A stretch of DNA of 37,178 nucleotides, taken from the NCBI GenBank assembly GCA_022766785.1, contig JALEOL010000095.1:1-37178 (forward strand), given 5' to 3'. This DNA comes from Oscillospiraceae bacterium (GTDB taxonomy: Bacteria; Bacillota; Clostridia; Oscillospirales; Ruminococcaceae). The translations under genes were made by a program, and so were the position numbers. Shown here one piece after another: positions 1,309-14,052 of this stretch (within the stretch, counting starts at the first letter, position 1; every line of letters starts with the position of its first letter). Below the pieces are notes generated by a model that did not search any database, was not told where the DNA came from, and saw only the letters and a list, made by a program, of their open reading frames with translations.

Positions 1309-1382
1309 GTTATAGAATATGAAACACTATGATAAATCGCGAAAACACACTTGATACGGTTAATTATATTGGAGGAAAAGCA

Positions 1383-3722
1383 ATGGAGGATTTTGAGAAA
1401 ACCACCTGGCTGCCCGGCGAGAATTCGGTGAAAAGGATCGGCGGTTCGCAGGTGACGATATTTGACGGAAGCGCGCCGCCGCGGACGATACGGCTAGACG
1501 ACCTCGGGAAGAACTGCATTTATTTCGGACGGGATAAAAGCAACGATATCGTTCTGACCTCCCACCTTGTATCCGGCGAGCACGGAAGATTTGTCTACAG
1601 GAACAACGCCTGGGTCATGGAGGACAAGGCGGCATATAAGGAGACCGGCAGCACCAACGGGCTTGTTTACAACGAATGTTCTGTGAGATCCCGCGTCATC
1701 TGCGACGGCGACCTTGTCAGGATCGACGATGTGTCAAATGCTCTGGCGGAGGGCGTGCTGTTCGTTTTTTCCTCCGCAGGCTCTGAAAACAGGTGGAGCA
1801 CTCTTCCGCTTTCGGGGAAAAGCCCGGTGTCAATAGGCAGAGATGACAGCTGCGATATTATCCTGCCGCATGTTTCGGTTTCTAAGCGCCACGCAGAGAT
1901 AGTGAATGACAACGGGAAATACATCATCTGCGATAACAACAGCACCAACGGCGTTATCGTGAACGGCTTTCCTGTCAGCAGGCGTATACTCCACGAAAAG
2001 GACGTTATCACGATAACAAACTCAAAGCTGATATTCTCCGGCGGTGCGATATTCTACTGCTGCTACAGGAGCGGTATTTCGGTGGACGCAAGGGATATCG
2101 TCATAAAGCGCAGGCAGGGCAGGAGAACTATCATCACCAGCAACCACGTTGATCTCAACATTAATCCCGGCGAGCTGGTGGCGGTGATCGGCGGCTCCGG
2201 CGCAGGAAAATCCACGATACTTAACTGCATGTGCGGCTACATAAAACCGGATAACGGCGACGTGTTCATAAACGGCGTCAATCTGTACCAGAACTTTGAC
2301 GCGCTGAAAAAGGTCGTGGGATATGTTCCGCAGTCGGATATCGTGTATGATAATCTGACGCTGTACGACATGCTGATGTATACCGCAAAGCTCCGTCTGC
2401 CAAAGGACACCACACCTGCCGAGCGCGAAGCGGCGATCGCCCGTGCTATCGACCTTGTGGAGCTTACCGAGAAAAAAGACAGCCTGATAAGATCGCTGAG
2501 CGGCGGTCAGCGCAAGAGGGCGAGCATAGCAGTGGAGCTGCTGTCCGACCCGAACCTGATGTTCCTTGACGAGCCGGCTTCGGGACTTGACCCGGGAACA
2601 GAGCGCAATCTCATGCAGTCGCTGCGGAAAATGGCGGACGGCGGAAAGACCGTTATCCTGGTAACTCACAGTACGCTACAGCTTAAAATGTGCGACAAGA
2701 TTGTGTTCATGGGAAAGGGCGGCAATCTGTGCTTCTTCGGCTCTCTTGATGAAGCGCTGGCGTTTTTCGGGGTATCCGATGTCGTGGACGTATACAACAT
2801 GATAACCGACCAGGCGCAGAAGTGGAGCGCGAAGTTCGAGACCTACAGAAGCGCCGGAAGCAGGAACGCCAGAAAGCCCGAGGTACCCTCCAGACCTGCA
2901 AAGAACCGCCTGAGGCAGCTCGCGGTGCTGAGCGCCAGGTACCTGAAGCTAGTGGCGAACGACAGGCAGAGACTGTTGCTGTTGCTGATACAGGCTCCGC
3001 TGCTTGCGGTGCTGATATCCTTTGTCGCTGACGGAGATCAGTTCGATCAGTACGATATGACAAAGAGCCTGCTGTTTGCGCTGTCCTGTTCGGCGTTCTG
3101 GGTGGGAATGCTCAACGCGATCCAGGAGATATGCAAGGAGCGCAACATAATGAAGCGCGAATACATGACCGGGCTTTCGCTCACTGCGTATATCATGTCG
3201 AAAATTATCGTACTTGGTATACTGTGTCTGATACAGAGCCTGATGATAACCGGCGTGTTCACCCTGCTCATCGGACTTCCAGAGGAGGGAATGTTCACAA
3301 ATCCGTTTGTGGAGCTGCTTCTTACCACGTTCATCACCGCGCTGTCCTCAACGGCTATGGGGCTTTTCGTGTCCTCTCTGTTCACCAATGCAGACCGCGC
3401 GATGACAGTCGCCCCGATACTTCTTATGCCGCAGATACTGTTCTCCGGACTGATATTCAAGCTGGACGGCGCGACCGAGATGATCTCCTGGTTCGCGGTC
3501 TGCCGCTGGAGCATGGAGGGCTATGGCACCACGGCAAATCTGAACGATCTGCCGACCAGGCTTCAGCTTGAGGGTCTGCCGATCGTCCGCGAGGCTGAGG
3601 AGTTCTACGATTTCACTCTCACTCACCTGCTCACTGCCTGGGGAATATTGCTGCTGTTCACTGTCGGATTCCTTGTGCTTGCGAGGATAGTGCTTTCAAA
3701 GGTCGGCAGGGAAAGGGCATGA
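1383..3722 (+). CDS. Double-FHA ABC transporter, ATPase fused to ABC-2 permease
   Basis: A 779-residue protein with two N-terminal FHA domains. The first (about 35-115) keeps GRDKSNDI, SGEH and STNG; the second (about 145-215) keeps GRDDSCDI, SKRH and STNG. An ABCG-type ATPase follows, with Walker A GGSGAGKST at 270-278, signature LSGGQRKR and Walker B MFLDEP. A C-terminal ABC-2 permease with about six helices occupies about 535-779. The start at 1383 has GGAGG seven bases upstream; an in-frame ATG at 1329 lacks a good site. Both FHA domains look able to bind phosphothreonine, so transport may be gated by protein phosphorylation. The substrate cannot be told. The gene ends 42 bases from the convergent ubiquitin-like operon, which carries another FHA domain, so a functional link is plausible. 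Confidence 0.93.
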   Translation: MEDFEKTTWLPGENSVKRIGGSQVTIFDGSAPPRTIRLDDLGKNCIYFGRDKSNDIVLTSHLVSGEHGRFVYRNNAWVMEDKAAYKETGSTNGLVYNECSVRSRVICDGDLVRIDDVSNALAEGVLFVFSSAGSENRWSTLPLSGKSPVSIGRDDSCDIILPHVSVSKRHAEIVNDNGKYIICDNNSTNGVIVNGFPVSRRILHEKDVITITNSKLIFSGGAIFYCCYRSGISVDARDIVIKRRQGRRTIITSNHVDLNINPGELVAVIGGSGAGKSTILNCMCGYIKPDNGDVFINGVNLYQNFDALKKVVGYVPQSDIVYDNLTLYDMLMYTAKLRLPKDTTPAEREAAIARAIDLVELTEKKDSLIRSLSGGQRKRASIAVELLSDPNLMFLDEPASGLDPGTERNLMQSLRKMADGGKTVILVTHSTLQLKMCDKIVFMGKGGNLCFFGSLDEALAFFGVSDVVDVYNMITDQAQKWSAKFETYRSAGSRNARKPEVPSRPAKNRLRQLAVLSARYLKLVANDRQRLLLLLIQAPLLAVLISFVADGDQFDQYDMTKSLLFALSCSAFWVGMLNAIQEICKERNIMKREYMTGLSLTAYIMSKIIVLGILCLIQSLMITGVFTLLIGLPEEGMFTNPFVELLLTTFITALSSTAMGLFVSSLFTNADRAMTVAPILLMPQILFSGLIFKLDGATEMISWFAVCRWSMEGYGTTANLNDLPTRLQLEGLPIVREAEEFYDFTLTHLLTAWGILLLFTVGFLVLARIVLSKVGRERA

Positions 3723-3730
3723 TAAATGAT

Positions 3731-3758
3731 AATGGCAGACGTTCACGCGCCTGCCATT
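3731..3758. terminator. Bidirectional terminator between convergent genes
   Basis: AATGGCAG (3731-3738) and CTGCCATT (3751-3758) form an 8-bp stem. The T-run on the plus side is good (TTTTTG); the minus side is only moderately T-rich. It serves the FHA-ABC gene and probably the end of the ubiquitin-like operon. Confidence 0.75.
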
Positions 3759-3764
3759 TTTGTA

Positions 3765-4934
3765 TTATCCGATCGGGATAAGCAGTTTCTGCCCCTCAAA
3801 GATAAGATCCGGGTCGTTTATCCCGTTGAGGGAGAGGATAATTCCGCTGAATTCCTCCCAGCTTATGTTATAGCTCCTGCAAATATCCGTCAGCGTCTCA
3901 CCGGAGCTTACCGTGTGAGTTACGCAGCGGAACAGCGTGCCGTTTCCGGGATTTGTTTCCGGCTCGGTGGGCGCAGGCTCCGGGGGCTGGGTCGAGTCTG
4001 TGTTTTCGCCGGAGTTATTTTCTTCCTGCTGTAAATTGTTTCTCAGATCATCTATCGTTTTATTCTGGTCGGCGATAGTTGTTTCAAGCTCGTCTATCCT
4101 GCGCAGAACGTCCTCGTTTCCGTCTGTATCGCCTATAATATCGCCGTATTCTGCGATAGCCCCGGACTGGTCGTCAACCCTCTGGGAAAGCTCGCGCTGG
4201 GATAAGCTCTGATTTTCCAGACGGTTGAACAGTATCACCGTGCAGACAAGCGATATCACGGTAAGCACAGAAAGAACAGCGATCGCCGCCTTTGCCGCCC
4301 CGGGGAATTTCGCTGAGGGCGCGGCTCCTGCGGTTTTGGCAGAGAGCGCGGCGGGCTTGGCTTTTGCGATCTTTATCGGCTTTCCCGGATCGTCGTAGAT
4401 GTAAAATCCGCCCAGCTTGATGATCTTCCCGTCTTTCCACTGGAAGAAGCCACGGAGATCCTGAACCGGGTCGATGACATACGCCACCTGAAACGGCAGG
4501 TCAAAAAAGTTCTCATGAATGAAGATATCGTAGTTGGACAGGAAAATGCCATAGCCCGGGTGAGTGTGCTGCCAGCCGACGATCTTTTTGTCGGGATAGA
4601 GCCTGTCCTGGGTCTCGTGGACATAATCCCAGGTCTCGTGGGTGAACGTCAGCGTTGACGCCGAAGCGTCGGTGTATTTCGCTTCGATGTACTCCGATAT
4701 CACAACGTGGGTCTTGCCAAGCGCCTGGGAGTATTCGCCCAGTATCATCGTGCCGCGCTCGTGGGCGGTGTCCTCAAGGGAGTATTTTTCGAGAGCCTTG
4801 TACACGTCCTGCCTGATGTAGACCTTTATGTCGTCCGGCTCAACTGTGCCTACAGTTATAAAGTTGACCGGCAGCTGAAGTTCATCGCCGGAGCTTTCCT
4901 GTTCGTCCAGCAGTTCAATTTCAAAATTGTCCAT
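3765..4934 (-). CDS. Membrane JAMM/JAB metallopeptidase with coiled coil and LysM
   Basis: In this 389-residue protein the N-terminal JAB/MPN domain (about 33-185) carries the complete JAMM zinc signature: Glu59, HTHP with His123 and His125, Ser133 and Asp136. This is the signature of isopeptidases that remove ubiquitin-like proteins. One membrane helix (about 215-236) follows, then a coiled coil (about 240-305), a Pro/Glu-rich linker (about 312-332) and a LysM domain (about 338-388). The peptidase should therefore be cytosolic and the LysM should hold the cell wall. It is the last gene of the ubiquitin-like operon, 10 bases after the RING-like gene, with GAGGAGG before the ATG. Likely job: deconjugation or precursor trimming at the membrane. 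Targets are unknown. Confidence 0.9.
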   Translation of the reverse strand: MDNFEIELLDEQESSGDELQLPVNFITVGTVEPDDIKVYIRQDVYKALEKYSLEDTAHERGTMILGEYSQALGKTHVVISEYIEAKYTDASASTLTFTHETWDYVHETQDRLYPDKKIVGWQHTHPGYGIFLSNYDIFIHENFFDLPFQVAYVIDPVQDLRGFFQWKDGKIIKLGGFYIYDDPGKPIKIAKAKPAALSAKTAGAAPSAKFPGAAKAAIAVLSVLTVISLVCTVILFNRLENQSLSQRELSQRVDDQSGAIAEYGDIIGDTDGNEDVLRRIDELETTIADQNKTIDDLRNNLQQEENNSGENTDSTQPPEPAPTEPETNPGNGTLFRCVTHTVSSGETLTDICRSYNISWEEFSGIILSLNGINDPDLIFEGQKLLIPIG

Positions 4935-4944
4935 AATGTCCTCC

Positions 4945-5868
4945 TCAGCCTGCTTTCACGGCGAAAATTATCAGAGCGGCGATAAGATAGCATATCGCGG
5001 CAAGAACCACCGCTGTGGAGTTGGTGCCGCCTTTTCTCGCTGCTGCCGCGGATCTTTCCGGCTCGTTGAGCCAGCGCAGATAATTAGCCAGCTTTTCTGT
5101 GTGCTGCATATAGAGATAGTTTCCGAATATCCCGAAAACGAAATATCCCACCAGCGATGCAATAAAGCACAGTGCGTCGTTTATCAGCGACAGCAGCACG
5201 CCGACGAGGAATGCTGCGCCATACCCGTACATGGTGCGGTATATCAGCCAGAACGGCGTGAAAAGGAACGCGCACCAGTTCCAGGAAACCTTGTTCCCCG
5301 TGAGCCTCATTCTGTGGAATTTCTCCTTGTAGTAAAACGCGTTGCTTCCGAGAAGCTGCATGGTATCCGCCGCCGGGTCTGTGTTCTGAGGAGCGGCGGA
5401 ATATTGCTGCTGATATCCCACCTGCTGCGCGTTCGGGTAATATTCCTGCTGAACGTTGACGCCGTTCCCCGACTGATAAATACGCTGCTGTGGATAGGGT
5501 ACGTTTTCCTGCTGCGGAGGATATCCGGAATTCATCTGGACAGAGTCTCCGACCCGGGAGCCGCATTTCGGGCAGAACGCGCCGTCCGCCGGCAGTGGAG
5601 CGCCGCAAGCCCGGCAGAATGCTGCGCCGGTCTGGGACATTGGCATACCGCCGGGAGTGCCGAACTGCATCTGGGTGGAGGTCACGGAGGAGGGAGCGTC
5701 GTCCACGCCTTTTATCCCTCCGAGGCAGCCGAAAGTGGTGCAGCCGCCGTTTTCCACCCAGCATTCCTTGTGGTGGGGCATATCGCAGGCGCTGCAAATC
5801 ACGATATCGTCGCCGTCCGTGAAAGCGGTCTTGCAGAACGGACAGATCTTACCTGTGTATTTATTCAT
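4945..5868 (-). CDS. RING-like (Prok-RING_1) zinc-ribbon DUF2628 membrane protein
   Basis: The 307-residue protein begins with a RING/treble-clef module whose potential ligands are Cys9, Cys12, Cys25, Cys28, His32/His33, Cys36, Cys43 and Cys48. This spacing is identical to that of the protein at 11110-12441. A zinc ribbon (CRACG...CPKCG) follows, then a Gln/Tyr/Pro-rich linker, and a DUF2628-like membrane region beginning near SWNWCAFLFTPFW with a final helix near the C terminus. Prok-RING_1 domains are known to sit beside bacterial Ub, E1, E2 and JAB genes, so this is a candidate membrane E3. No ligase activity is shown by sequence alone. The start overlaps the preceding JAMM gene by 8 bases, suggesting translational coupling. 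Confidence 0.85.
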   Translation of the reverse strand: MNKYTGKICPFCKTAFTDGDDIVICSACDMPHHKECWVENGGCTTFGCLGGIKGVDDAPSSVTSTQMQFGTPGGMPMSQTGAAFCRACGAPLPADGAFCPKCGSRVGDSVQMNSGYPPQQENVPYPQQRIYQSGNGVNVQQEYYPNAQQVGYQQQYSAAPQNTDPAADTMQLLGSNAFYYKEKFHRMRLTGNKVSWNWCAFLFTPFWLIYRTMYGYGAAFLVGVLLSLINDALCFIASLVGYFVFGIFGNYLYMQHTEKLANYLRWLNEPERSAAAARKGGTNSTAVVLAAICYLIAALIIFAVKAG

Positions 5869-6901
5869 TTCCAGTCTCTCCAGTCAAATCAACCGGTTTT
5901 TCCGCGGCTTCGGAGTACTGCGGAGTTTCTTCTGTGGCATCAACCACCGCACTCTCATGGGAGCGCGGCGGTTCTGCTGTGCCGGTACTCTCGCCCTCAT
6001 GGGAACTCTCTGCTTCGGCTGTGCCGGGCTTTGAGGACTCAGCGGTATCGGCAGTATCATCGGGCAGAATGCTGTTGAGTATCGCTGCAATGGTGCCGAT
6101 CTGCTGGTGCATGGTATCCAGCGAGCTGTTAGCGGTAGAGGTGAGGGTGCTCATATTTTCGCGCAGCGCCCGTATCTCGCTCATCTGGGATATCAGCATC
6201 AGCAGCATGACCAGCATAACAGCGCCCATTCCGCCGCACACGAACTTCCATGCATTGGACGGTTTCGCGGCAGGCACAGGCTCTGAATGCTCCCCGACAG
6301 CGTTTATCTGCGTGCCGATCTCATCGTAGATATAGAAGCCGCTGCACCGCTCGATCTCGCCGTTCACCCAGAAATAGAAGCCCTCGGTGTGACGTATCGG
6401 GTCGATCACATACGCCACCTGATCCTCTCCGCTGAAGAAATTCTCCTGTATGAACTTGTCGTATTCGGACAGGAAAATGCCGAAATCCGGGTGGGTGTGT
6501 ATCCAGCCGATTATCTTCTTTCCGGGGAATTTCCGGTCGAGGTCGGCGTGTATCTGCTCCCATGTCTCGTGGGTGAATTTCAGCGTGGTGGGGGTAGCTT
6601 CGCAGTGCTTTGCCACGATAAATCCCTCTATCATCACGTTCGCCCTGCCAAGCTCGTCTGTGACCTGTCCCACAAGCACGCCGCCGCTTTCGTTTGTGGT
6701 CTTGCCTTTCGTGAAGCGGTGGATCTCACGGTAGGTCTTTTGCGAGATATAGATGTTCCTGTTTCCCTCCACGTGCTCGCCTATCAGCAGTATGTTCTGT
6801 GGCAGCGACGAGCTTTCTGAGCCGTCCTGAAAGTCCTCGTCCGGGTCGTTGGCTATGATCGGGCGGTATTCCTCCGGGGTTTTCTTCTTTTTCTTTGCCA
6901 T
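5861..6901 (-). CDS. Second membrane JAMM/JAB metallopeptidase
   Basis: A 346-residue protein with a lysine-rich N terminus and a JAB domain at about 40-195. The JAMM residues Glu71, His135, His137, Ser145 and Asp148 are all present. A single membrane helix lies at about 219-240, followed by a short helical stretch and a Ser/Thr/Glu-rich tail predicted outside the cell. There is no LysM, unlike its paralogue at 3765-4934. The start at 6901 is chosen because GGAG lies seven bases upstream; an earlier in-frame start would run into the protease gene. It sits between the trypsin-like protease and the second RING gene. Two membrane-bound deconjugating enzymes in one operon suggest different substrates or locations. 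Confidence 0.88.
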   Translation of the reverse strand: MAKKKKKTPEEYRPIIANDPDEDFQDGSESSSLPQNILLIGEHVEGNRNIYISQKTYREIHRFTKGKTTNESGGVLVGQVTDELGRANVMIEGFIVAKHCEATPTTLKFTHETWEQIHADLDRKFPGKKIIGWIHTHPDFGIFLSEYDKFIQENFFSGEDQVAYVIDPIRHTEGFYFWVNGEIERCSGFYIYDEIGTQINAVGEHSEPVPAAKPSNAWKFVCGGMGAVMLVMLLMLISQMSEIRALRENMSTLTSTANSSLDTMHQQIGTIAAILNSILPDDTADTAESSKPGTAEAESSHEGESTGTAEPPRSHESAVVDATEETPQYSEAAEKPVDLTGETGNE

Positions 6902-6905
6902 ATGT

Positions 6906-7793
6906 TCACTCCAGTATGTCGATGTCAAAATCCGTGCGTTCGCTGGGGTCGTTTCGGAGCTTTATCGTCCGCCGCTTCTCGAAAACCAGCAGTATCACCA
7001 GCAGGACATTCAGCGCCGCCGAAACACCGAGCGCCGCCAGAACTATCACGTTTAACGTGCCGGACTGCTCGTTGGGCTTTTCAGTCACGGGGGCTTCGGT
7101 GGTTCCGGGGTATTCCGCTTCATGCCCGGGAGGGGTGATGTTACCTGTGATATTACCGCTGCTGCCTGTTGCGATGTGGTTTTCTTCAAGGAACTCCGCC
7201 ACCGTGCTTATCGGTATCGCAAGACCTATACCCTCGCTGTCGGAGAGCTTCATGGAATTTACTCCGATGACGCTCCCGGAGTCGTCCAGCAATGGACCGC
7301 CGCTGTTTCCCTTGTTTATCGCAGCGTCCGTCTGGATATAGCTCATCCCGTTAATTTCGCGGTCTTTCGAGGAAACAACCCCTTTTGTCAGCGTGTAGGA
7401 CATGCTGTTCGGCGCTCCGATGGCATAAACGTCCGCACCGGCGGAAAGCGAGTCGATATCCCCAGGAGGGAACGGCGTGTAATCCGCGCCCTCGACCGCT
7501 ACTGCCGCAAGGTCTGTGTCATAGTCTATCGCGATGAGCTGACCGGCGGAAACGCTACCGCTGTGGTCGGTGACAAATATGCTCCTTTCGTCCTCAATGA
7601 CGTGGGCGTTGGTTATCATGACGTTGCTCCCGAAAGCGAAGCCGCTTCCGAGGGAAGTTCCCGATTGCAGCACGAATACCGAATCGTAAGCCTTTTCAGC
7701 GTCAAATCCTATAGCTGCGGCAGGGCGCGAAAATGAGAGCAGCATTGCAAGAATGCCGCCTCCCACCGCAGATGGTATGAGATGTCTCCTCAC
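6906..7793 (-). CDS. Secreted trypsin-like serine protease with C-terminal membrane anchor
   Basis: An HtrA/trypsin-2-type protease of about 295 residues with the catalytic triad His64 (TNAHVIED), Asp94 (DYDTDLAAV) and Ser164 (KGNSGGPLL). A signal peptide with an AAA-I type cleavage region lies at about residues 1-28. A C-terminal helix (about 249-271) anchors it and leaves a basic/acidic cytosolic tail of about 24 residues. There is no PDZ domain, unlike DegP/HtrA. I prefer the GTG start at 7793 because AGGGGG lies seven bases upstream and it gives a clean signal peptide. An ATG at 7814, overlapping the E2 stop as ATGA, is the alternative. Its place inside the conjugation operon suggests that an extracytoplasmic event is coupled to the cytosolic system; this is inference. 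Confidence 0.88.
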   Translation of the reverse strand: MRRHLIPSAVGGGILAMLLSFSRPAAAIGFDAEKAYDSVFVLQSGTSLGSGFAFGSNVMITNAHVIEDERSIFVTDHSGSVSAGQLIAIDYDTDLAAVAVEGADYTPFPPGDIDSLSAGADVYAIGAPNSMSYTLTKGVVSSKDREINGMSYIQTDAAINKGNSGGPLLDDSGSVIGVNSMKLSDSEGIGLAIPISTVAEFLEENHIATGSSGNITGNITPPGHEAEYPGTTEAPVTEKPNEQSGTLNVIVLAALGVSAALNVLLVILLVFEKRRTIKLRNDPSERTDFDIDILE

Positions 7794-7810
7794 AATACTG
7801 CCCCCTGAAA

Positions 7811-9586
7811 TCATTTTGTATTGAATATCAGCACCGAGTTGCCCAGTGCGATAGCGTCGCCCTGTCTGAGAATATGCCTTGCGACGCGCTGACCGTTCAC
7901 CAGCGTCCCCATGGGAGTGCCCCGGTCGATGAGCACATACTTGCTGCCCTCCAGCACGATATCGCAGTGGTGCGGCCCGACCAGCTTATCCTTGAACAGC
8001 ACGATTGTGTTCTTGCCGTTGTTGCCGATGCTGGTAGTCCCGGCGAAAACCAGATATTCCTTGCCCTCGAACTCGCCGCGTATCACCTTGAGCCATGCCT
8101 GCTTTGCGAACTGCTCCAGCAGACCTATGCCAAGACCTATCAGAAGCGCCATGATGATAATGCCGATAGCTCTGGGGACTGTTCCGGTGTCGTCCTCGCC
8201 GGTGCTGAAGATATCCACGATGAAGTTGAACAGGAACCCACCGAAGAACCCTCCGCCGAGACCGCCCACAGCGCAGAACAGAACGCGCTTCTTTTCAGGC
8301 TTGATAAGTCCGATAGAAATGCCCACGCCAAGACCCATGACAGCCCAGCCCAGACCGCGCACCAGCGCCGCCGTGAAGTCAGACGCGGTGTCAGACAGCA
8401 TCGCGGAATACATCCACTGTGCGAGATAGCCGCTGCCAAAGCCGATGACGAGGGAAAGCCCTGCGCCGATACCGGCGTATTTGAGCGCCTTTTCAGCGGA
8501 GCCGTAGAACACGCCCTCGCCGATGCCCATGAAAAGACCGATACCGCACGCAATGAATGCGGAGAACAAACCGGAGGATATCCGCACTGCATTTTTCATG
8601 ATCTCCATAGCCTGGTCGGAATCGAGGTACAGCAGGTCGTACAGCGAGTCGTAGCCCATCCATTTCAGGACGTTAATGCTGTCGGTCGCGTCGCTCAGCA
8701 CTTCCTGGAGGATAAAGCCCACTATGCCGCCGATGAGCGCCCACAGCAGACCTTTCATGAATACGGTCTTGAAGTTCACCTTGCCGCCCTTTACGGTGCC
8801 GTTGTGGGAAACGGTCTGCATTCTCTGGGCGGTGGGAACGTATTCGATGCCGGCAAGCTCCTCCGGCGTTATGTCAAAATCGTTGCCGTCCGGCTTTGCA
8901 AGGGTGACTGCCGCTGCCGCGAACCCGGACTGTGGCAGTCCGCCGGAAGTCGGCTCCGGCTGGGGAGAGGTGATACTCTGCTCCGCGCTGGCGGCTCCCG
9001 GTTTTTCCAGGCTTACCGTTCCGGGAATTTCCGCAGGCGCGGAGTTTGTCCCGTCAGGTATCGGAGCGCCGTTGTCGTCAAACAGGTCGATATCCACCGA
9101 GTCCTTTGCAGAGGCGTAATCAGCCACATTAAGCTCCACATTTCCCACCGGGAACAGGTGCTTGTTGTCCATAGCCCACTGGGCGGCGTCGGCGCACAGC
9201 GGACTGAACGAGTTCCAGGATTTGTACTGTATCATGTCGCCGATATTGATGATGATATCGCTCAGCGACTCCCCGGCACCCCAGATATCGCCGATGCATA
9301 TCTGACCGTCCCGGAAATTCGGGTGCCATATCGGAGTGAGTATCCTGCATATCGGCTTGTATCTTGGGTATTCGGCATGCAGCGTTATCTCCACCTCATG
9401 CCTGCCCAGGGTCTCTATCCTCCCGTCCGGCAGCAGGTATATTCCGTTTACGAAATATGTGACGTGGTATTTCTCCGGCGGCTCCTCGCCCACGGGAGTT
9501 ACAATAATGTTCTTATGCCCTGCAAAATCCTTTTTGACCTGCTCGTAGTCCGAGGCAAGCCGCCTTAATCTTGCGGTCGATGCCAT
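7811..9586 (-). CDS. E2-like UBC domain fused to six membrane helices and FHA
   Basis: A 591-residue protein. The N-terminal ubiquitin-conjugating fold (about 1-160) has the E2 hallmark HPN at 88-90 followed by the putative catalytic Cys97 in GQICIGDIW. A Pro/Ser/Ala-rich linker (about 165-275) leads to six Gly-rich membrane helices (about 285-500) and a C-terminal FHA domain (about 515-591). The even number of helices puts both UBC and FHA in the cytosol. The FHA is degenerate: the phosphate-binding Arg of GR is Asn (SIGNNG), SRxH reads GPHH, and the usual NGT reads MGT. The ATG at 9586 has AGGGG eight bases upstream; a TTG at 9604 overlapping the E1 stop is less likely. It should accept the ubiquitin-like protein from the neighbouring E1. 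Confidence 0.9.
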   Translation of the reverse strand: MASTARLRRLASDYEQVKKDFAGHKNIIVTPVGEEPPEKYHVTYFVNGIYLLPDGRIETLGRHEVEITLHAEYPRYKPICRILTPIWHPNFRDGQICIGDIWGAGESLSDIIINIGDMIQYKSWNSFSPLCADAAQWAMDNKHLFPVGNVELNVADYASAKDSVDIDLFDDNGAPIPDGTNSAPAEIPGTVSLEKPGAASAEQSITSPQPEPTSGGLPQSGFAAAAVTLAKPDGNDFDITPEELAGIEYVPTAQRMQTVSHNGTVKGGKVNFKTVFMKGLLWALIGGIVGFILQEVLSDATDSINVLKWMGYDSLYDLLYLDSDQAMEIMKNAVRISSGLFSAFIACGIGLFMGIGEGVFYGSAEKALKYAGIGAGLSLVIGFGSGYLAQWMYSAMLSDTASDFTAALVRGLGWAVMGLGVGISIGLIKPEKKRVLFCAVGGLGGGFFGGFLFNFIVDIFSTGEDDTGTVPRAIGIIIMALLIGLGIGLLEQFAKQAWLKVIRGEFEGKEYLVFAGTTSIGNNGKNTIVLFKDKLVGPHHCDIVLEGSKYVLIDRGTPMGTLVNGQRVARHILRQGDAIALGNSVLIFNTK

Positions 9587-9600
9587 GTTTTTATCCCCTT

Positions 9601-10785
9601 TCAAAGACCGCTGAATACTTCAGCCTGGTCTCCGGTAAATTCAAAATAAGACGCGTTCATACCAACGCGGCCGCAAACTATATGCATCAGCGGAATGCCG
9701 ATATCATACAGCGTTTTGTCGAGGAAATCCTCGTCTCCGCGTATCGTGTGGACAGAGTTGAACTGCATAGCCGAGCCGCATTCCGGGCAGACAAGCATAC
9801 TGCCGCGGAGCTTGTGCACCGGCATGAACAGATCCTTTTTCTTTCCGCAGCTGCAATATGCGGTGGTGGCGATATCCCGGTCGAGGTCGATGACAGCGTT
9901 CTCTCCTGCCTCGCCGCGTATCTCACCCAGAAGTTCCCTCAGCGTCATGGTGCGGACCGACCACGGCTTCTCCAGGATAGGCTCGTAGGTCTCATGGCTC
10001 ATGCAGTCGGGCTTCTCCTGGTATTCCACCACATATGAATCGTGGGTAAGCCCGTTGAAAACATACCCTCTGCCTGCCAGCACGGGAAGCCCCCGGTCGT
10101 GGTGAAGCAGCTTCAGCATTTCCTGCACCTGTATCCCGGCGATTATCGAGGAGGAGGTCGGCGTTGTGGGTATCTTGCCCTCCGCCATCTGCTCGTGGGT
10201 GAGAAGCGCGCAGGACTTGCGCTTGTTGATGAGCTTCCAGTCGGTCTCGGTCATGGTGCACTCGTAGCAGGCGCCGTGACCCGGCACGAACACTCTCGCA
10301 AAGCCGTTCAGCACCTCTATCGCCCCGTCTATCCAGGGTCTGCCCACCTTGTAGCAGGACTGGTTTATCGCAAGTCTCGCCTCGCGGTTGTCAAGTCCGC
10401 CGAGCACAACGTACATTCTTCTGAACACGCCCAGTCCCACGTCGTCGATGATGTTGCTGACGAACGCTTTTGCCCTGACGTCGGGGTTCATTTCCATGGC
10501 GCGCTCCGCGGCGACTTCCGCCTTGTACCTGCCGACGTCGCTTCGCCGGTAAAGCACGGAGCGCGTCAGGTTGGTGTTCTCGATGCTGTCCATGTCAAAG
10601 ATGAGTATTTTCCCAACGCCCAACAGTGCGAGGTTCTTTATCAGCTCGTTGCCGATAGCTCCTGCTCCGACGACCATGATGCAGGCGCTGCTGAGCCTTT
10701 CCTGATCCCACCAGGGGATAAGCCGCAGACGGCTGTAGCGATCCTCCTCAAAATCAGAGGCTCCAAACTCGATCTTGTTATCCAT
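9601..10785 (-). CDS. ThiF/E1-like ubiquitin-like protein activating enzyme
   Basis: In this 394-residue protein the Rossmann adenylation domain has the nucleotide loop GAGAIG at 40-45, followed by DMDSIENTNLTR and the basic/aromatic run of E1 enzymes. WIDGAIEVLNGFARVFVPG and CYEC (Cys173/Cys176) align with the UBA3-type region. Cys192 (KRKSCALL) sits where E1 enzymes have the thioester cysteine. A C-terminal extension (about 270-394) holds CSCG (311-314) and CPEC (333-336), a probable zinc knuckle. It should adenylate the C terminus of the ubiquitin-like protein encoded just upstream and pass it to the E2 encoded downstream. It overlaps the Ubl stop as TGATG, so the two are translationally coupled. 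The E1-like residues make a plain MoeB/ThiF sulfur carrier role less likely. Confidence 0.9.
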   Translation of the reverse strand: MDNKIEFGASDFEEDRYSRLRLIPWWDQERLSSACIMVVGAGAIGNELIKNLALLGVGKILIFDMDSIENTNLTRSVLYRRSDVGRYKAEVAAERAMEMNPDVRAKAFVSNIIDDVGLGVFRRMYVVLGGLDNREARLAINQSCYKVGRPWIDGAIEVLNGFARVFVPGHGACYECTMTETDWKLINKRKSCALLTHEQMAEGKIPTTPTSSSIIAGIQVQEMLKLLHHDRGLPVLAGRGYVFNGLTHDSYVVEYQEKPDCMSHETYEPILEKPWSVRTMTLRELLGEIRGEAGENAVIDLDRDIATTAYCSCGKKKDLFMPVHKLRGSMLVCPECGSAMQFNSVHTIRGDEDFLDKTLYDIGIPLMHIVCGRVGMNASYFEFTGDQAEVFSGL

Positions 10786-11060
10786 CAGTGCGCACCTGCT
10801 GTGATCTCAGGCTGGAGCCGCAGCACGTCTCCGTCGTGGATACCGGCTTCCGCAAGGGTCTGGGATTCCAGCAGCTGACGACCTGTTACCTTGTGGATAA
10901 ACTTATAGCTTATGGGATTTCCGTCCGGGCCGACCGAGGGGAGCTTTATCTTCTCCACCAGCTTTACCATGATGATACCGCACTTGATATCGTCCGGAAG
11001 TCCTACCTTCTGTTCCTTGTTTCCTGTTGCGTCTACGATCACTACATTGACTTTTGCCAT
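10785..11060 (-). CDS. Ubiquitin-like beta-grasp protein
   Basis: A 91-residue protein with the length and pattern of a YukD/ubiquitin-like beta-grasp fold. An N-terminal hairpin (VNVVIVDATGNKEQKVGLP) is followed by a helix and by YKFIHKVTGRQLLESQTLAEAGI and VLRLQP. The last part parallels the LIFAGKQLEDGRTLSDYNI and LVLRL region of ubiquitin. The C terminus continues past the fold and ends AGAH, with no Gly-Gly. It is therefore unclear whether it is used as is, trimmed after Gly89 by one of the JAMM enzymes, or not conjugated at all. AGGAGG lies eight bases before the ATG. Being encoded directly before E1 and E2, it is the obvious modifier of the system. Confidence 0.85.
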   Translation of the reverse strand: MAKVNVVIVDATGNKEQKVGLPDDIKCGIIMVKLVEKIKLPSVGPDGNPISYKFIHKVTGRQLLESQTLAEAGIHDGDVLRLQPEITAGAH

Positions 11061-11076
11061 TTTATTTTCCTCCTGT

Positions 11077-11090
11077 CCGGGTATACCCGG
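11077..11090. promoter_or_regulatory. Intergenic hairpin directly upstream of the Ubl ribosome site
   Basis: CCGGG-TATA-CCCGG lies in the 49-base gap between the RING-like gene and the Ubl gene. On the operon (minus) strand it is preceded by an A-rich run and followed directly by ACAGGAGG, so it does not look like a terminator in that direction. It could stabilise a processed mRNA end or tune Ubl translation. On the plus strand it is followed by TTATTTTTTA and could stop antisense transcripts. Confidence 0.5.
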
Positions 11091-11109
11091 TTATTTTTTA
11101 GATTCTCCG

Positions 11110-12441
11110 TCAGTCAGACGAGGTGTCCACCGGCACTGCCTGTGGGATAAGCTTTACGTCATCAAGATCGCCGCTCTTGAACAGCCCGTTTATTCGGTCA
11201 ACTGCGTCCTGGTCGAGCTGATACCGGGTCACTGCGTTTTCTTCGATAATAGTTATACCGGAGTTGTAGATTATCTTATCTGCGGACTCCGAGGACGTGT
11301 CGTAGATCGAATATTCCTTCCTGTCGAGGTCGTAGTATGTATCCCAAAGCTTCCACTGTGCGTCGTCAAAGCTGTAATAGAACACCCAGTAGTTTAGCAC
11401 GGTGTTGCCGTAGCTGTTGTTTCCGGCTACCTGGAGCACGACACGCGTTCCGTTGGAGCTGTTGTACCACGCCTTTCGCAGATCAAAGGACTTGCTGTCC
11501 TTCATCGACAGCATGGCTTTTCCGGAGCAGTTGGCAATGGTGTTTTCCGCTACTACGTCCTGCTTTTCGCTGACTGTGCCGGCGGTGGAGTATGCCTTGA
11601 CATAATTTCCCTCCGTGAGATAGTCCTCCGTTGATCTGAATATCTTGGGCAGAATGATCACCGCAAGAACCACCAGCAGAACCACGGCAGCGGATATCGA
11701 GGCTATCATCACCGGTTTCTTTTTGCTCTTCTTGTTTGCGGCGGTAATTCCGGCGTTGAACTGCTGTATCGCCGAGGACACACCTGCGTCCATCGAAAGT
11801 CCCACCTTGTTTCCGCAGCGTGGGCAGAATTCCTGACCGGGGAGCATGGAAGCTCCGCATTTCTGGCAGACCGCAGGAGCCTGTGCCGACCTTATCGTGC
11901 CGCATTTCCGGCAGTATTCCTCGTTGGGGGCGAGTACCGCGCCGCAGCCCTGGCATATCGTCGATGCCTGAACCGGGGCGTAAGTCTGCACCGGTGCTGT
12001 AGAAATAGCTGCCGTGTTCGCGTAGTTCGGCGATGTGTTCTTACCAACAGAGGGCATTACGCTGTCCGGGGAAGTAACCGCTGCCATTGCCGGAGCGGAT
12101 TTTCTGGTGCCGCACTTCGGGCAGAATTCCTGATCCGGCAGCATAGGAGCGCCGCAGGACTGGCAGGCGTTCTGCGAGGGCTGAGCCGCTTTCCTGGTGC
12201 CGCATTTCGGGCAGAACTCCTGATCCGGAAGCATAGGAGCGCCGCAGGCTTTGCAAACTGCTCCGGGGGGCTGTTTAAGTACCGCGTCATGCTGACCGCA
12301 GCCAAAGGTGGTGCAGCCCTTGTTGTCGTTCCAGCAGCTTTCGTGGTGAGGTATTCCGCATTCCGGGCAGACGACCACAGCCTCTCCCTGATGTATCATG
12401 GTGCGGCAGTAGGGGCAAATCTTTCCTGCATGATCTTCCAT
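11110..12441 (-). CDS. RING-like protein with four zinc ribbons and a membrane anchor
   Basis: The 443-residue protein starts with a RING/treble-clef module with Cys9, Cys12, Cys25, Cys28, His32/His33, Cys36, Cys43 and Cys48 (Prok-RING_1-like). Four double-CxxC zinc ribbons follow, the first two nearly identical (CGAPMLPDQEFCPKCGTRK). A Lys-rich boundary and one membrane helix (about 245-266) lead to an extracellular C-terminal region of about 175 residues that I do not recognise. It is the first gene of the ubiquitin-like operon, with AAGGAGG before the ATG. By family context it is a candidate E3 or adaptor: cytosolic zinc modules could hold substrate and E2 while the outer domain senses or contacts something outside. 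Catalytic activity cannot be inferred from sequence alone. Confidence 0.86.
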   Translation of the reverse strand: MEDHAGKICPYCRTMIHQGEAVVVCPECGIPHHESCWNDNKGCTTFGCGQHDAVLKQPPGAVCKACGAPMLPDQEFCPKCGTRKAAQPSQNACQSCGAPMLPDQEFCPKCGTRKSAPAMAAVTSPDSVMPSVGKNTSPNYANTAAISTAPVQTYAPVQASTICQGCGAVLAPNEEYCRKCGTIRSAQAPAVCQKCGASMLPGQEFCPRCGNKVGLSMDAGVSSAIQQFNAGITAANKKSKKKPVMIASISAAVVLLVVLAVIILPKIFRSTEDYLTEGNYVKAYSTAGTVSEKQDVVAENTIANCSGKAMLSMKDSKSFDLRKAWYNSSNGTRVVLQVAGNNSYGNTVLNYWVFYYSFDDAQWKLWDTYYDLDRKEYSIYDTSSESADKIIYNSGITIIEENAVTRYQLDQDAVDRINGLFKSGDLDDVKLIPQAVPVDTSSD

Positions 12442-12560
12442 TTTTTATCCTCCTTGACGGTTTTTATTTCTGTGTTCCGCGGTAAAATGGTGTTTATCTG
12501 ACAAAATCCCGAGCATATACGTCTGAAGAAAACATGATATGACAGTATTTTTCATTTCAC

Positions 12561-12589
12561 ATTATATCACATGTGTATCGATCAACTGT
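12561..12589 (-). promoter_or_regulatory. Probable promoter of the ubiquitin-like operon
   Basis: On the minus strand TATAAT (12561-12566) has an extended -10 TGA, but the -35 position (12584-12589, ACAGTT) is far from consensus. A CACATGTG palindrome at 12568-12575 lies in the spacer. The leader before the first start is about 110 bases. The poor -35 contrasts with the near-perfect promoters elsewhere in the window. The rest of 12442-12660 holds no gene that I can support. Confidence 0.6.
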
Positions 12590-12664
12590 TCGACAAATGA
12601 TACAATTCGGGCAAAAACCGGTTTTTTTTCAGTTTATCTGGAATAAAATGGGTGTACTTCACGC

Positions 12665-12690
12665 AAAAAAAAGGAGGGCATACACCCTCC
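12665..12690 (-). terminator. Terminator of the SPFH-RHH operon
   Basis: GGAGGG (12673-12678) pairs with CCCTCC (12685-12690). On the minus strand the hairpin is followed by eight T residues (12665-12672). Confidence 0.8.
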
Positions 12691-12767: not shown

Positions 12768-12953
12768 TCATTCGTTCTCCTTGTCCGGAGCGGAGTGCTT
12801 TTTGCGGTATTTCACGCATTCCGTCAGCAGGTATTCTATCTGACCGTTGACCGAACGGAAATCGTCCTCTGCCCATTTCATAAGTTCGTTATAGAGTGTT
12901 GCCGAAAGCCTGAGAGGTATCTGCTTCTTTTCTTTTTTTTCGTTGTCCGCCAT
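12768..12953 (-). CDS. Arc/CopG-like ribbon-helix-helix DNA-binding protein
   Basis: A 61-residue protein with a Lys-rich N terminus, a beta strand IPLRLSATLY and two helices (residues about 20-48) in the Arc/MetJ ribbon-helix-helix pattern. The polar tail is short. AGGGGG precedes the ATG. It is the second gene of an operon, 55 bases after the SPFH gene, and is followed by a terminator. No toxin gene is next to it, so it looks like a regulator rather than an antitoxin. Two GATATC sites spaced 11 bp apart just after the operon promoter are natural candidates for its operator, which would make it an autorepressor; that link is inference. Confidence 0.8.
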   Translation of the reverse strand: MADNEKKEKKQIPLRLSATLYNELMKWAEDDFRSVNGQIEYLLTECVKYRKKHSAPDKENE

Positions 12954-13008
12954 GCAGCATACCCCCTTTGCCTGCTTGAATATAGATCAGAATATCAGAT
13001 CAATGCGC

Positions 13009-13971
13009 TCAGTATATAGAGCCGCTGTTTACTATCGGCTGAGCGTCCTTGTTTCCGCAGAGTACCACCAGCAGATTGGAGACCATCTGCGCTTTTCTCT
13101 CCTCGTCCAGCTCGCACACGTTGCTCTCGCTGAGCTTGTTCAGCGCCATTTCCACCATGCCGACAGCGCCGTCAACGATCTTCTGGCGTGCTTCGATTAT
13201 AGCGGTTGCCTGCTGGCGCTGGAGCATTGCAGCTGCGATCTCCGGCGCGTATGCAAGGTGGGTTATCCTCGCCTCGATTATCTCAAGACCTGCGTTGTCA
13301 ACGCGCTTCTGGAGCGTTTCCTTCAGCTTTTCGCAGACCTCCTGGGAGGAGCCGCGCAGCGACATTTCGTCAGAGTCCGTGGAGTCGTAAGGGTAGCACC
13401 TCACAACGTCGCGCAGGGTGGAGTCTGCCTGTATCGACATGAAATCCTCGTAGTCGTCAACGTTGAAAAGCGCCTTTGCGGTGTTTTGTACACGCCATAC
13501 CACAACGATACCCACCTCGATAGGGTTGCCCATCTGGTCGTTTATTTTCTGCTTGTGGTTGTCGTGGGTCATAGCCTTGAGCGAGATCTTGGTGTGGGGG
13601 ATACCGTTCTTTGCCCCGGACAGTCCCGACTGCTTTTTCGGAGTGACCGGAACGCTGAAAACGTTCACAAAGTAAAATCCCTCGTTCCTGAGAGTGCCGA
13701 TGTACTTACCGAAAAGCGTGAGGACGAGCGCCTCGTTCGGCTTTATCACGCGCAGCCCGATAAACGGAAACCAGCCCACGCAAAGCCAGACGATCCCAAC
13801 GATCATGCCAACATCGTATCCGTTGAACTCACCCTCCACGATATTTGACGAGAAGAATATCACCGCCGCGATCGCCGCAAGGTACAGAACGATCGTGATA
13901 AACAGCACCGCCCAGCCGCTTGGGGCTTTCAGTTCCTTTTCTTCGTAGTTCATTTTTTCGTTGTTTTTCAT
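13009..13971 (-). CDS. SPFH/band 7 membrane scaffold protein
   Basis: A 320-residue protein with two N-terminal hydrophobic helices (about 20-48 and 52-77) and an SPFH/prohibitin domain (about 75-270). Characteristic stretches are [21 protein letters not shown] and the helical segment ending with [28 protein letters not shown] proteins oligomerise on membranes and organise microdomains or regulate membrane proteases such as FtsH. The ATG at 13971 is chosen for GGGAGG five bases upstream. The gene has its own near-perfect promoter and is paired with a small ribbon-helix-helix protein. It lies directly upstream of a membrane-bound ubiquitin-like operon, so a shared membrane-quality role is conceivable but not shown. 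Confidence 0.9.
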
Positions 13972-13996
13972 ATTGACCTCCCTTGTCCATTTCGAA

Positions 13997-14015
13997 ATGA
14001 TATCAAAATGATATC
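13997..14015 (-). promoter_or_regulatory. Paired GATATC operator candidate
   Basis: ATGATATC occurs at 13997-14004 and again at 14008-14015, exactly 11 bp apart, so on the same helix face. They lie between the -10 element (14024-14029) and the ribosome site of the SPFH gene, about +2 to +20 of the transcript. GATATC is palindromic, as expected for a dimeric ribbon-helix-helix protein. Confidence 0.55.
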
Positions 14016-14023
14016 TTGGTAAG

Positions 14024-14052
14024 ATTATATCACAGCAGTTGCAATTTGTCAA
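14024..14052 (-). promoter_or_regulatory. Promoter of the SPFH-RHH operon
   Basis: Minus strand TTGACA (14047-14052), 17-base spacer, TATAAT (14024-14029) with extended -10 TGA. A full consensus match. Confidence 0.9.

Follow-up and report, generated by a model that had tools for sequence, protein, structure and literature searches.

An eight-gene operon of an Oscillospiraceae bacterium predicted to encode a membrane-anchored, reversible ubiquitin-like conjugation pathway

Eight tightly packed genes carry the predicted parts of a conjugation pathway

In a 37,178-nucleotide stretch of DNA from an Oscillospiraceae bacterium, a gut-type member of the Clostridia (GenBank assembly GCA_022766785.1, contig JALEOL010000095.1; hereafter the window), positions 3765-12441 are occupied by eight tightly packed open reading frames (ORFs) on the minus strand, which encode a RING protein (RINGa), a YukD-type ubiquitin-like modifier (Ubl), an E1, an E2 with a transmembrane (TM) region and an FHA domain, an HtrA-like protease, a JAMM-TM protein (JABa), a RING-TM protein (RINGb) and a JAMM-TM-LysM protein (JABb). 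An earlier, sequence-only reading had described eight adjacent minus-strand genes for a Ubl, an E1, an E2, two RING-like proteins, two JAMM proteins and a serine protease, and both the ORFs and their domains, called as Pfam matches above the curated cut-offs, bear this out. Neighbouring genes overlap or nearly touch, as had also been said, with intergenic gaps from RINGa to JABb of 49, -1, -4, -4, -23, -8 and 10 bases. TM segments, taken from a plain hydropathy scan rather than a trained predictor, were detected in six products, leaving Ubl and E1 without, much as the earlier reading had it, and the LysM domain that it had placed in a JAMM product was recovered. The features are as follows.

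11110-12441, minus strand: RINGa, Prok-RING_1 (Pfam 5.8e-11) with zinc ribbons, one TM segment (246-264) and an outer domain; E3 candidate
10785-11060, minus strand: Ubl, YukD-type ubiquitin-like modifier of 91 amino acids (Pfam YukD 1.4e-12)
10794-10814, minus strand: Ubl QPEITAG (residues 83-89), the predicted mature C-terminus, with a two-residue tail at 10788-10793
9601-10785, minus strand: E1, ThiF-type activating enzyme (Pfam ThiF 2.1e-53), C-terminal domain with zinc ribbon
10210-10212, minus strand: E1 Cys192, predicted thioester cysteine
7811-9604, minus strand: E2, UBC domain (Pfam UQ_con 1.4e-7), linker, multi-TM region (hydropathy) and C-terminal FHA (Pfam 3.4e-12)
9296-9298, minus strand: E2 Cys103, predicted catalytic cysteine, after HPN (residues 94-96)
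9074-9100, minus strand: E2 linker motif 1 (by alignment), SVDIDLFDD, similar to a UFM1-interacting or SUMO-interacting motif (UFIM/SIM)
8834-8884, minus strand: E2 linker motif 2 (by alignment), NDFDITPEELAGIEYVP
6906-7814, minus strand: HtrA-like trypsin-fold protease (Pfam Trypsin_2 8.8e-29); a hydrophobic anchor at the C-terminal end precedes a short tail
6909-6944, minus strand: protease tail motif SERTDFDIDILE, predicted to be cytosolic
5861-6928, minus strand: JABa, JAMM peptidase domain (Pfam JAB 2.9e-7), TM segment and outer tail
4945-5868, minus strand: RINGb, Prok-RING_1 (Pfam 4e-15), zinc ribbon and DUF2628-like TM region (two TM segments); E3 candidate
3765-4934, minus strand: JABb, JAMM domain (Pfam JAB 2.1e-5), TM segment, outer coiled coil and LysM (Pfam 7.6e-11)
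4905-4928, minus strand: JABb N-terminal motif NFEIELLD (motif search and alignment)
3731-3758, minus strand: terminator-like hairpin 3´ of the operon (consensus match only)

Of what an E1-E2-RING-JAMM conjugation system requires, the sequences show a Ubl with a conserved C-terminal Gly, at which cleavage is predicted, a ThiF-fold E1 with an invariant Cys, an E2 with HPN and Cys, and the full JAMM metal site (E..HxH..S..D) in both JABa and JABb. RINGa and RINGb both match Prok-RING_1 above cut-off and are candidate E3 ligases. A search with Prok-RING_4 gave no match, in the controls either.

Gene content and catalytic residues recur in related loci

Forty-four related loci were collected in one scan of genome contigs with E2 residues 1-169, in which six E2 peptide patterns fetched the loci. 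Most come from Clostridia with titles marking metagenome-assembled genomes. Among the records without such a title are Massiliimalia, a pair of Lachnospiraceae strains and two Clostridium; Massiliimalia massiliensis and the Lachnospiraceae strains MC2017 and LC2019 are carriers that exist as isolates. The labels outside Clostridia are two Synergistales/Synergistaceae and one Roseiflexaceae. Searching the ORFs of these loci by phmmer with the window proteins, and then with models built from the matches, we recognised E1 in 41/44 loci and Ubl in 39/44. Four of the loci with no recognised Ubl (L019, L020, L029 and L050) have little or no contig sequence before E1/E2, and in the fifth (L023) Ubl is in pieces. 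For 21 of the 44 loci, selected for a recognised Ubl, at least 2 kb before Ubl and at least 6.5 kb after the E2 start, the presence of Ubl and E2 follows from the selection itself. Among these well-flanked loci we detected E1 in 21, RINGb-like proteins in 20 and RINGa-like proteins in 18 (the RING-like counts include zinc-ribbon proteins with no RING domain), JABb in 18, HtrA in 17 and JABa in 15, with any JAMM gene in 21 and both in 12; an ORF matching a RING-domain model was present in 21/21. Scattered homologues, which the sequence-only reading had named as counting against an operon, were not seen, and the co-occurrence of the set in loci fetched by E2 alone indicates that it did not come together by chance.

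Alignments were made from rows above set bit scores with the window included, and contain a duplicate genome (L003/L033) and near-identical pairs (L013/L015, L030/L031 and L047/L048). The catalytic residues, whose loss in orthologues had likewise been named as adverse, are kept throughout: E1 Cys192 is Cys in 42/42 rows, the E2 HPN and Cys103 are present in 47/47 (partly by construction in the case of the Cys), JABa E80, H144, H146, S154 and D157 in 28/28, and JABb E59, H123, H125, S133 and D136 in 31/31. The E2 cysteine had been called Cys97; the residue stands and the number does not, as it is Cys103 from the TTG start and Cys97 from an in-frame ATG six codons later. The protease His71/Asp101/Ser171 triad was found in 32/32 rows. 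Collectively, the domain matches, the invariant catalytic residues and the conserved gene content support the earlier reading of a conjugation and deconjugation set with membrane segments, as far as sequence can predict it.

A strongly conserved modifier with a variable tail

QPEITAG is present in 41/41 aligned Ubl rows, followed by no residue in 6 of them, by 1-8 in 30 and by 107-318 in 5. Variable residues behind an invariant Gly are what a precursor cut after Gly89 would be expected to show, and the Ubl looks as expected of such a trimmed precursor. In our own reading of the alignment, the five long ORFs continue after Ubl into a lipoprotein-like membrane segment (L021, L024, L032 and L037) or a zinc-ribbon-TM part (L038). 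These long genes resemble eukaryotic ubiquitin fusions.

Over 820 pairs, Ubl had a median amino-acid identity of 0.89 (lowest 0.76), with median proportions of synonymous (pS) and nonsynonymous (pN) differences of 0.847 and 0.075, respectively. Because synonymous sites are near saturation, this conservation looks like selection rather than recent copying. Median identities of the other parts were 0.70 for E1, 0.65 for E2, 0.41 for the protease, 0.38-0.41 for the RING parts and 0.45-0.49 for the JAMM proteins. Against solved structures, the Ubl profile gave weak matches to ubiquitin and SUMO.

Features of the E1, E2, protease and RING proteins

By sequence search, the closest solved structures of E1 were ubiquitin E1s and UBA5, with UBA5 as the top PDB match of residues 110-265. 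The UBA5 alignment pairs no Cys with E1 Cys192, the putative thioester cysteine. We read the invariant C173, C176, C261 and H264 (42/42) as a probable zinc site. For E2, the best PDB matches were RAD6-type E2s, in which HPN and Cys are aligned. Identity inside E2 was 0.81 for the UBC domain, 0.80 for FHA, 0.55 for the TM region and 0.39 for the linker. At the three FHA positions where we take Arg, Ser and Asn to be expected in a phosphothreonine site (assigned by eye from the FHA consensus), the alignment has N528 in 40/43 rows, G/A543 in 37/43 (S in 5) and M565 in 32/43 (S in 5). The C-terminal domain of E2 is a real FHA domain that, judged by these positions, lacks the usual phosphothreonine-binding residues, and a role as phosphothreonine reader was rejected on this basis.

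The protease is nearest to the Do/HtrA/DegS families of NCBIfam, all far under the curated cut-offs. It had been described as a secreted serine protease; the protease domain is confirmed, and simple secretion is not, as residues 256-274 of the window's protein, close to its C-terminus, form a hydrophobic segment (28/32 aligned rows have two such segments), after which comes a conserved tail. This tail is predicted to be cytosolic if the catalytic domain lies outside.

We also noted further RING-type and zinc-ribbon proteins. Large extra RING-type proteins (705-818 amino acids) are encoded upstream of Ubl in L008, L013, L015, L025 and L049, and Pfam confirms Prok-RING_1 in two of them (L008 and L025). 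At L014 and L017 there are zinc-ribbon proteins that carry TPR or PASTA repeats. Together these proteins may be a diverse group of E3s or partners. Elsewhere in the window's own genome (contig C104:9399-10361) lies the gene of one more Prok-RING_1 protein, the third, in which hydrophobic segments are present, and no Ubl gene was noticed among the ORFs listed around it.

A short acidic-hydrophobic motif is shared by E2, JABb and the protease

The comparison revealed a motif, new in this analysis, of the form F/W-[DE]-I-[DE]-hydrophobic, which recurs in the HtrA tail, the JABb N-terminus and the E2 linker and is rare elsewhere. In the protease tail, F[DE]I[DE] is present in 31/32 rows, the last row (L022) running off its contig. 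A strict pattern, [DEN][FVI][DE]I[DE]-hydrophobic, was found in 30/31 HtrA, 15/30 JABb and 17/45 E2 proteins (62/106 in total), for which composition shuffles expect 0.35, 0.40 and 0.70 strict sites, respectively, compared with 1/185 other operon proteins (RINGb 1/32, E1 0/42, JABa 0/27, RINGa 0/45 and Ubl 0/39) and 2/318 other flank proteins. Two of the 17 strict E2 sites (L013 and L015) lie inside the UBC domain, off the linker position. A relaxed pattern, allowed at any position, was found in 30 HtrA, 18 JABb and 32/45 E2 proteins, in 4/27 JABa, in one E1 and one RINGb protein, and in 17/318 of the others, which is shuffle level. In a diverged branch (L058 and L059; E2 ~55% identical), a widened pattern detected the motif in a split UBC protein, the protease tail and a JAMM protein, and E2 linker motif 2 recurs as [FW]EITAEEL/[FW]EITGAEL repeats in a separate TM-FHA protein. 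Both loci retain HPN-Cys and the motifs, and L058 additionally ITAG and the E1 Cys.

According to the parts available of two accounts of UBA5, this E1 binds UFM1 via WGIELV, with Ile343 and Leu345 sitting on hydrophobic patches (PMC5428781, PMC7564214), and the operon motif appears to resemble this UFM1-binding motif. The likeliest candidate for its partner is the Ubl, with FHA and RING as other candidates. The motif was rejected as a means of locating more substrates in the window's own genome: five sites matched its DNA pattern versus one in a reversed control, and the protease tail alone fits.

Patchy distribution and the possibility of a defence role

The operon is patchy and accessory. 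Counting the window's own genome in each figure, we found Ubl in 1/43 genomes of the genus and E2 in 3/297 of the family (G098 being a distant match), 3/394 of the order and 6/398 of the phylum, two of the last (G988 and G1017) weak or partial. Several contigs of G098, including the L064 locus, carry a distant E2/JAMM cluster with E2 25-31% identical, perhaps another Ubl system. In an E1+E2 tree of 36 rows, the window is nearest to a Lachnotalea bin and another Clostridia bin, while Massiliimalia, a family relative, splits off at a deeper point of the ten-row group to which they all belong, as do the Synergistota and Chloroflexota rows. This pattern suits horizontal transfer, though misbinned contigs could look alike. 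For the window contig itself misbinning is unlikely, since the neighbouring genes, an SPFH gene and a small gene judged RHH-like by eye with no Pfam match (12768-14052), are a genus-typical pair.

This pair borders the operon. SPFH is present in 33/43 genus genomes, and of five genus regions compared, the four with SPFH have an RHH-like gene within 1 kb (the fifth, L083, had been chosen for its ABC protein). In these four SPFH regions tblastn found no operon genes, and the pair was rejected as part of the system. On the other side, a convergent FHA-FHA-ABC transporter gene (1329-3722) ends 42 bases from the operon end and has a near full-length relative (74%) in one other genus genome, G027. 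A second terminator-like hairpin lies upstream of the operon at 12690-12673, the scan yielding 22 such sites across the window compared with 11.0 expected in shuffles, and a sequence scan of 12442-12672 found no promoter-like site.

The same distribution could reflect anti-phage or DNA-damage-induced defence of the Bil, CBASS or Bub sort, in which Ubl conjugation would disarm phage or prime an effector. We consider this unlikely, though it accounts for more than the patchiness and the mixed taxa of the tree: an integrase adjoins L018, a resolvase adjoins L012, and an XRE-type helix-turn-helix gene is paired with an M78 (IrrE/ImmA-type) peptidase gene upstream of the operon in 7/28 loci with at least 4 kb of upstream sequence, with XRE alone in 3 more. 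In the window, neither the XRE nor the M78 model gave a match. As far as the available part of PMC13373217 goes, CapH+CapP repressor-peptidase pairs answer DNA damage and control defence operons, and CapW or CapH+CapP occurs in 219/544 Bub operons, for which protection has yet to be proven; by analogy with CapH+CapP, the XRE+M78 pair may be a cue to DNA-damage control. Set against a defence role, the eight genes include no nucleotide cyclase or known effector, PADLOC returned partial-length matches to its E1-E2 and JAB models and matched the protease to its RT-Protease model, and the near-frozen Ubl, UBC and FHA domains seem unlike the products of an arms race. We also know of no outer LysM or protease parts in Bil, CBASS or Bub defence systems. 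Phages and viral contigs gave no match, seven pattern matches in the viral contigs having failed confirmation, and a phage or viral origin was rejected. A plasmid search returned one record, at 28.5% identity.

Comparison with known systems

A 2011 study by Burroughs, Iyer and Aravind (Mol BioSyst) is said to have predicted YukD-Ubl/E1/E2/RING/JAB operons in bacteria, with YukD-like Ubls that may be conjugated. Searches of the open literature, which did not include that 2011 survey of RING proteins or the Bub papers of 2025-2026, listed no description of the present membrane-anchored set. Type II CBASS combines a nucleotide cyclase with a fused E1-E2, whereas the eight genes here include no cyclase and encode E1 and E2 separately. 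The Ub/E1/E2/RING/Rpn11 operon of Caldiarchaeum subterraneum likewise groups a JAMM-cut ubiquitin (Ub) precursor, E1, E2, RING E3 and JAMM in one neighbourhood (PMC5654768, in the part available), the cleavage and the E3 role here being predicted; its Ub ends in di-Gly, whereas the present operon has a single Gly, a YukD-type Ubl, membrane anchors and an HtrA-like protease. Bil operons, as described in part of PMC11354881, share a bacterial Ubl, E1, E2 and JAMM, but BilA carries a pair of Ub-like domains and the site in BilB is CEHH, compared with the one Ub-like domain, HPN-Cys, RING and TM parts found here. To Bub operons the likeness is in the stress-type repressors upstream (PMC13373217, same part). 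With UFMylation the operon shares UBA5 as the structure nearest to E1 and a short W/F-x-I-x-hydrophobic motif; in the available parts of PMC5428781 and PMC7564214 this motif is in the E1 UBA5, unlike here, where it is in E2, JAMM and protease and the E2 has HPN.

Type VII secretion offers a different use for such a Ubl, namely as a non-conjugated structural subunit like YukD/EsaB, with E1 and E2 acting on something else. The Ubl is of the YukD family, and the available part of PMC11217815 describes EssC FHA domains of the type VIIb system (T7SSb) that lack a phosphothreonine site and bind a pseudokinase, which likens a YukD-type Ubl and a site-less FHA in a membrane protein to the arrangement here. 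The operon, in contrast, has no EssC-type gene, and its Ubl ends in the invariant Gly89, while YukD of type VII secretion has no Gly-Gly. WXG100 gave one match in the window's own genome (86% complete), below cut-off, and EssC was not searched for genome-wide. As E1 and JAMM are also present in 21/21 well-flanked loci, we regard a structural subunit as improbable. A ThiS/MoaD-like sulphur-carrier or cofactor pathway in which the E1 is a partner, as its likeness to ThiF might suggest, is very improbable, as we know of no place in such pathways for an HPN-type E2, RING or TM-JAMM proteins and a 2006 survey, in its available part, has thiamine and Mo/W-cofactor operons with no JAB gene (PMC1779556).

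A predicted membrane-anchored tagging pathway

We conclude that the operon probably encodes a membrane-anchored, reversible ubiquitin-like conjugation pathway, a conclusion based on which domains and genes are present, on the catalytic residues, on the strength of selection, on how enriched the motif is and on the hydrophobic segments. Several observations weigh against it. The predicted mature Ubl has one Gly at its end instead of Gly-Gly. One of the six fetching patterns includes the E2 Cys, and the invariance of that residue is therefore partly by construction. Among the 9 matches of the E1 C-terminal domain to solved structures (E values up to 10) there was no E2-binding domain, and its role as a UFD-like E2-binding domain is a guess. 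Gene content varies: of the 21 loci, 4 lack HtrA, 6 lack JABa and 3 lack JABb. At L040 two E2 genes but no E1 were recognised, the L023 Ubl (about 8070-8270) is in pieces across two frames and the L034 E1 is split over two ORFs; these loci look damaged or partial, through assembly faults or decay. Finally, half of the JABb proteins and 28 of the 45 E2 proteins do not carry the strict motif, and the motif counts come from related sequences, for which Fisher p-values are not valid as probabilities.

In the conjugation pathway that we propose, the JAMM peptidases would trim the variable Ubl precursor tail after Gly89, as the free variation behind an invariant QPEITAG suggests. E1, to judge by its ThiF family and its invariance, would adenylate Gly89 and load Ubl on Cys192, from which Ubl would move to Cys103 of the membrane-embedded E2 with its eukaryote-type HPN site. 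The TM-anchored RING proteins may then select membrane or envelope-linked substrates, and the two TM-anchored JAMM proteins would take the tag off again. E2, JABb and the HtrA-like protease may dock through the short motif that they share, which in the protease is in the tail, most likely on Ubl by beta-strand addition like UFIM/SIM. Surface-stress or envelope-protein tagging is a plausible role.

A more specific arrangement, which we offer as speculative and rather doubtful, is that the tag is placed inside and the cut made outside. Ubl on the cytosolic face would recruit, via the tail SERTDFDIDILE, a protease whose catalytic domain is outside, so that surface proteins bearing the mark would lose their outer part, and the same motif in E2 and JAMM-LysM would set the balance between tagging and untagging. 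If true, this would be a bacterial counterpart of UFM1/ubiquitin membrane-protein quality control that works without a proteasome.

Recurrence of the UFIM/SIM-like motif gives a concrete prediction of a Ubl-binding code, which could be checked by simple peptide-binding tests, and the invariant Arg81...Gly89 end would leave an LQPEITAG tryptic remnant usable for finding substrates. With a Ubl almost unchanged across distant hosts, alongside an HPN-type E2, RING proteins and a pair of JAMM proteins, the majority carrying membrane segments, the operon would be a compact model for ubiquitin systems on membranes.

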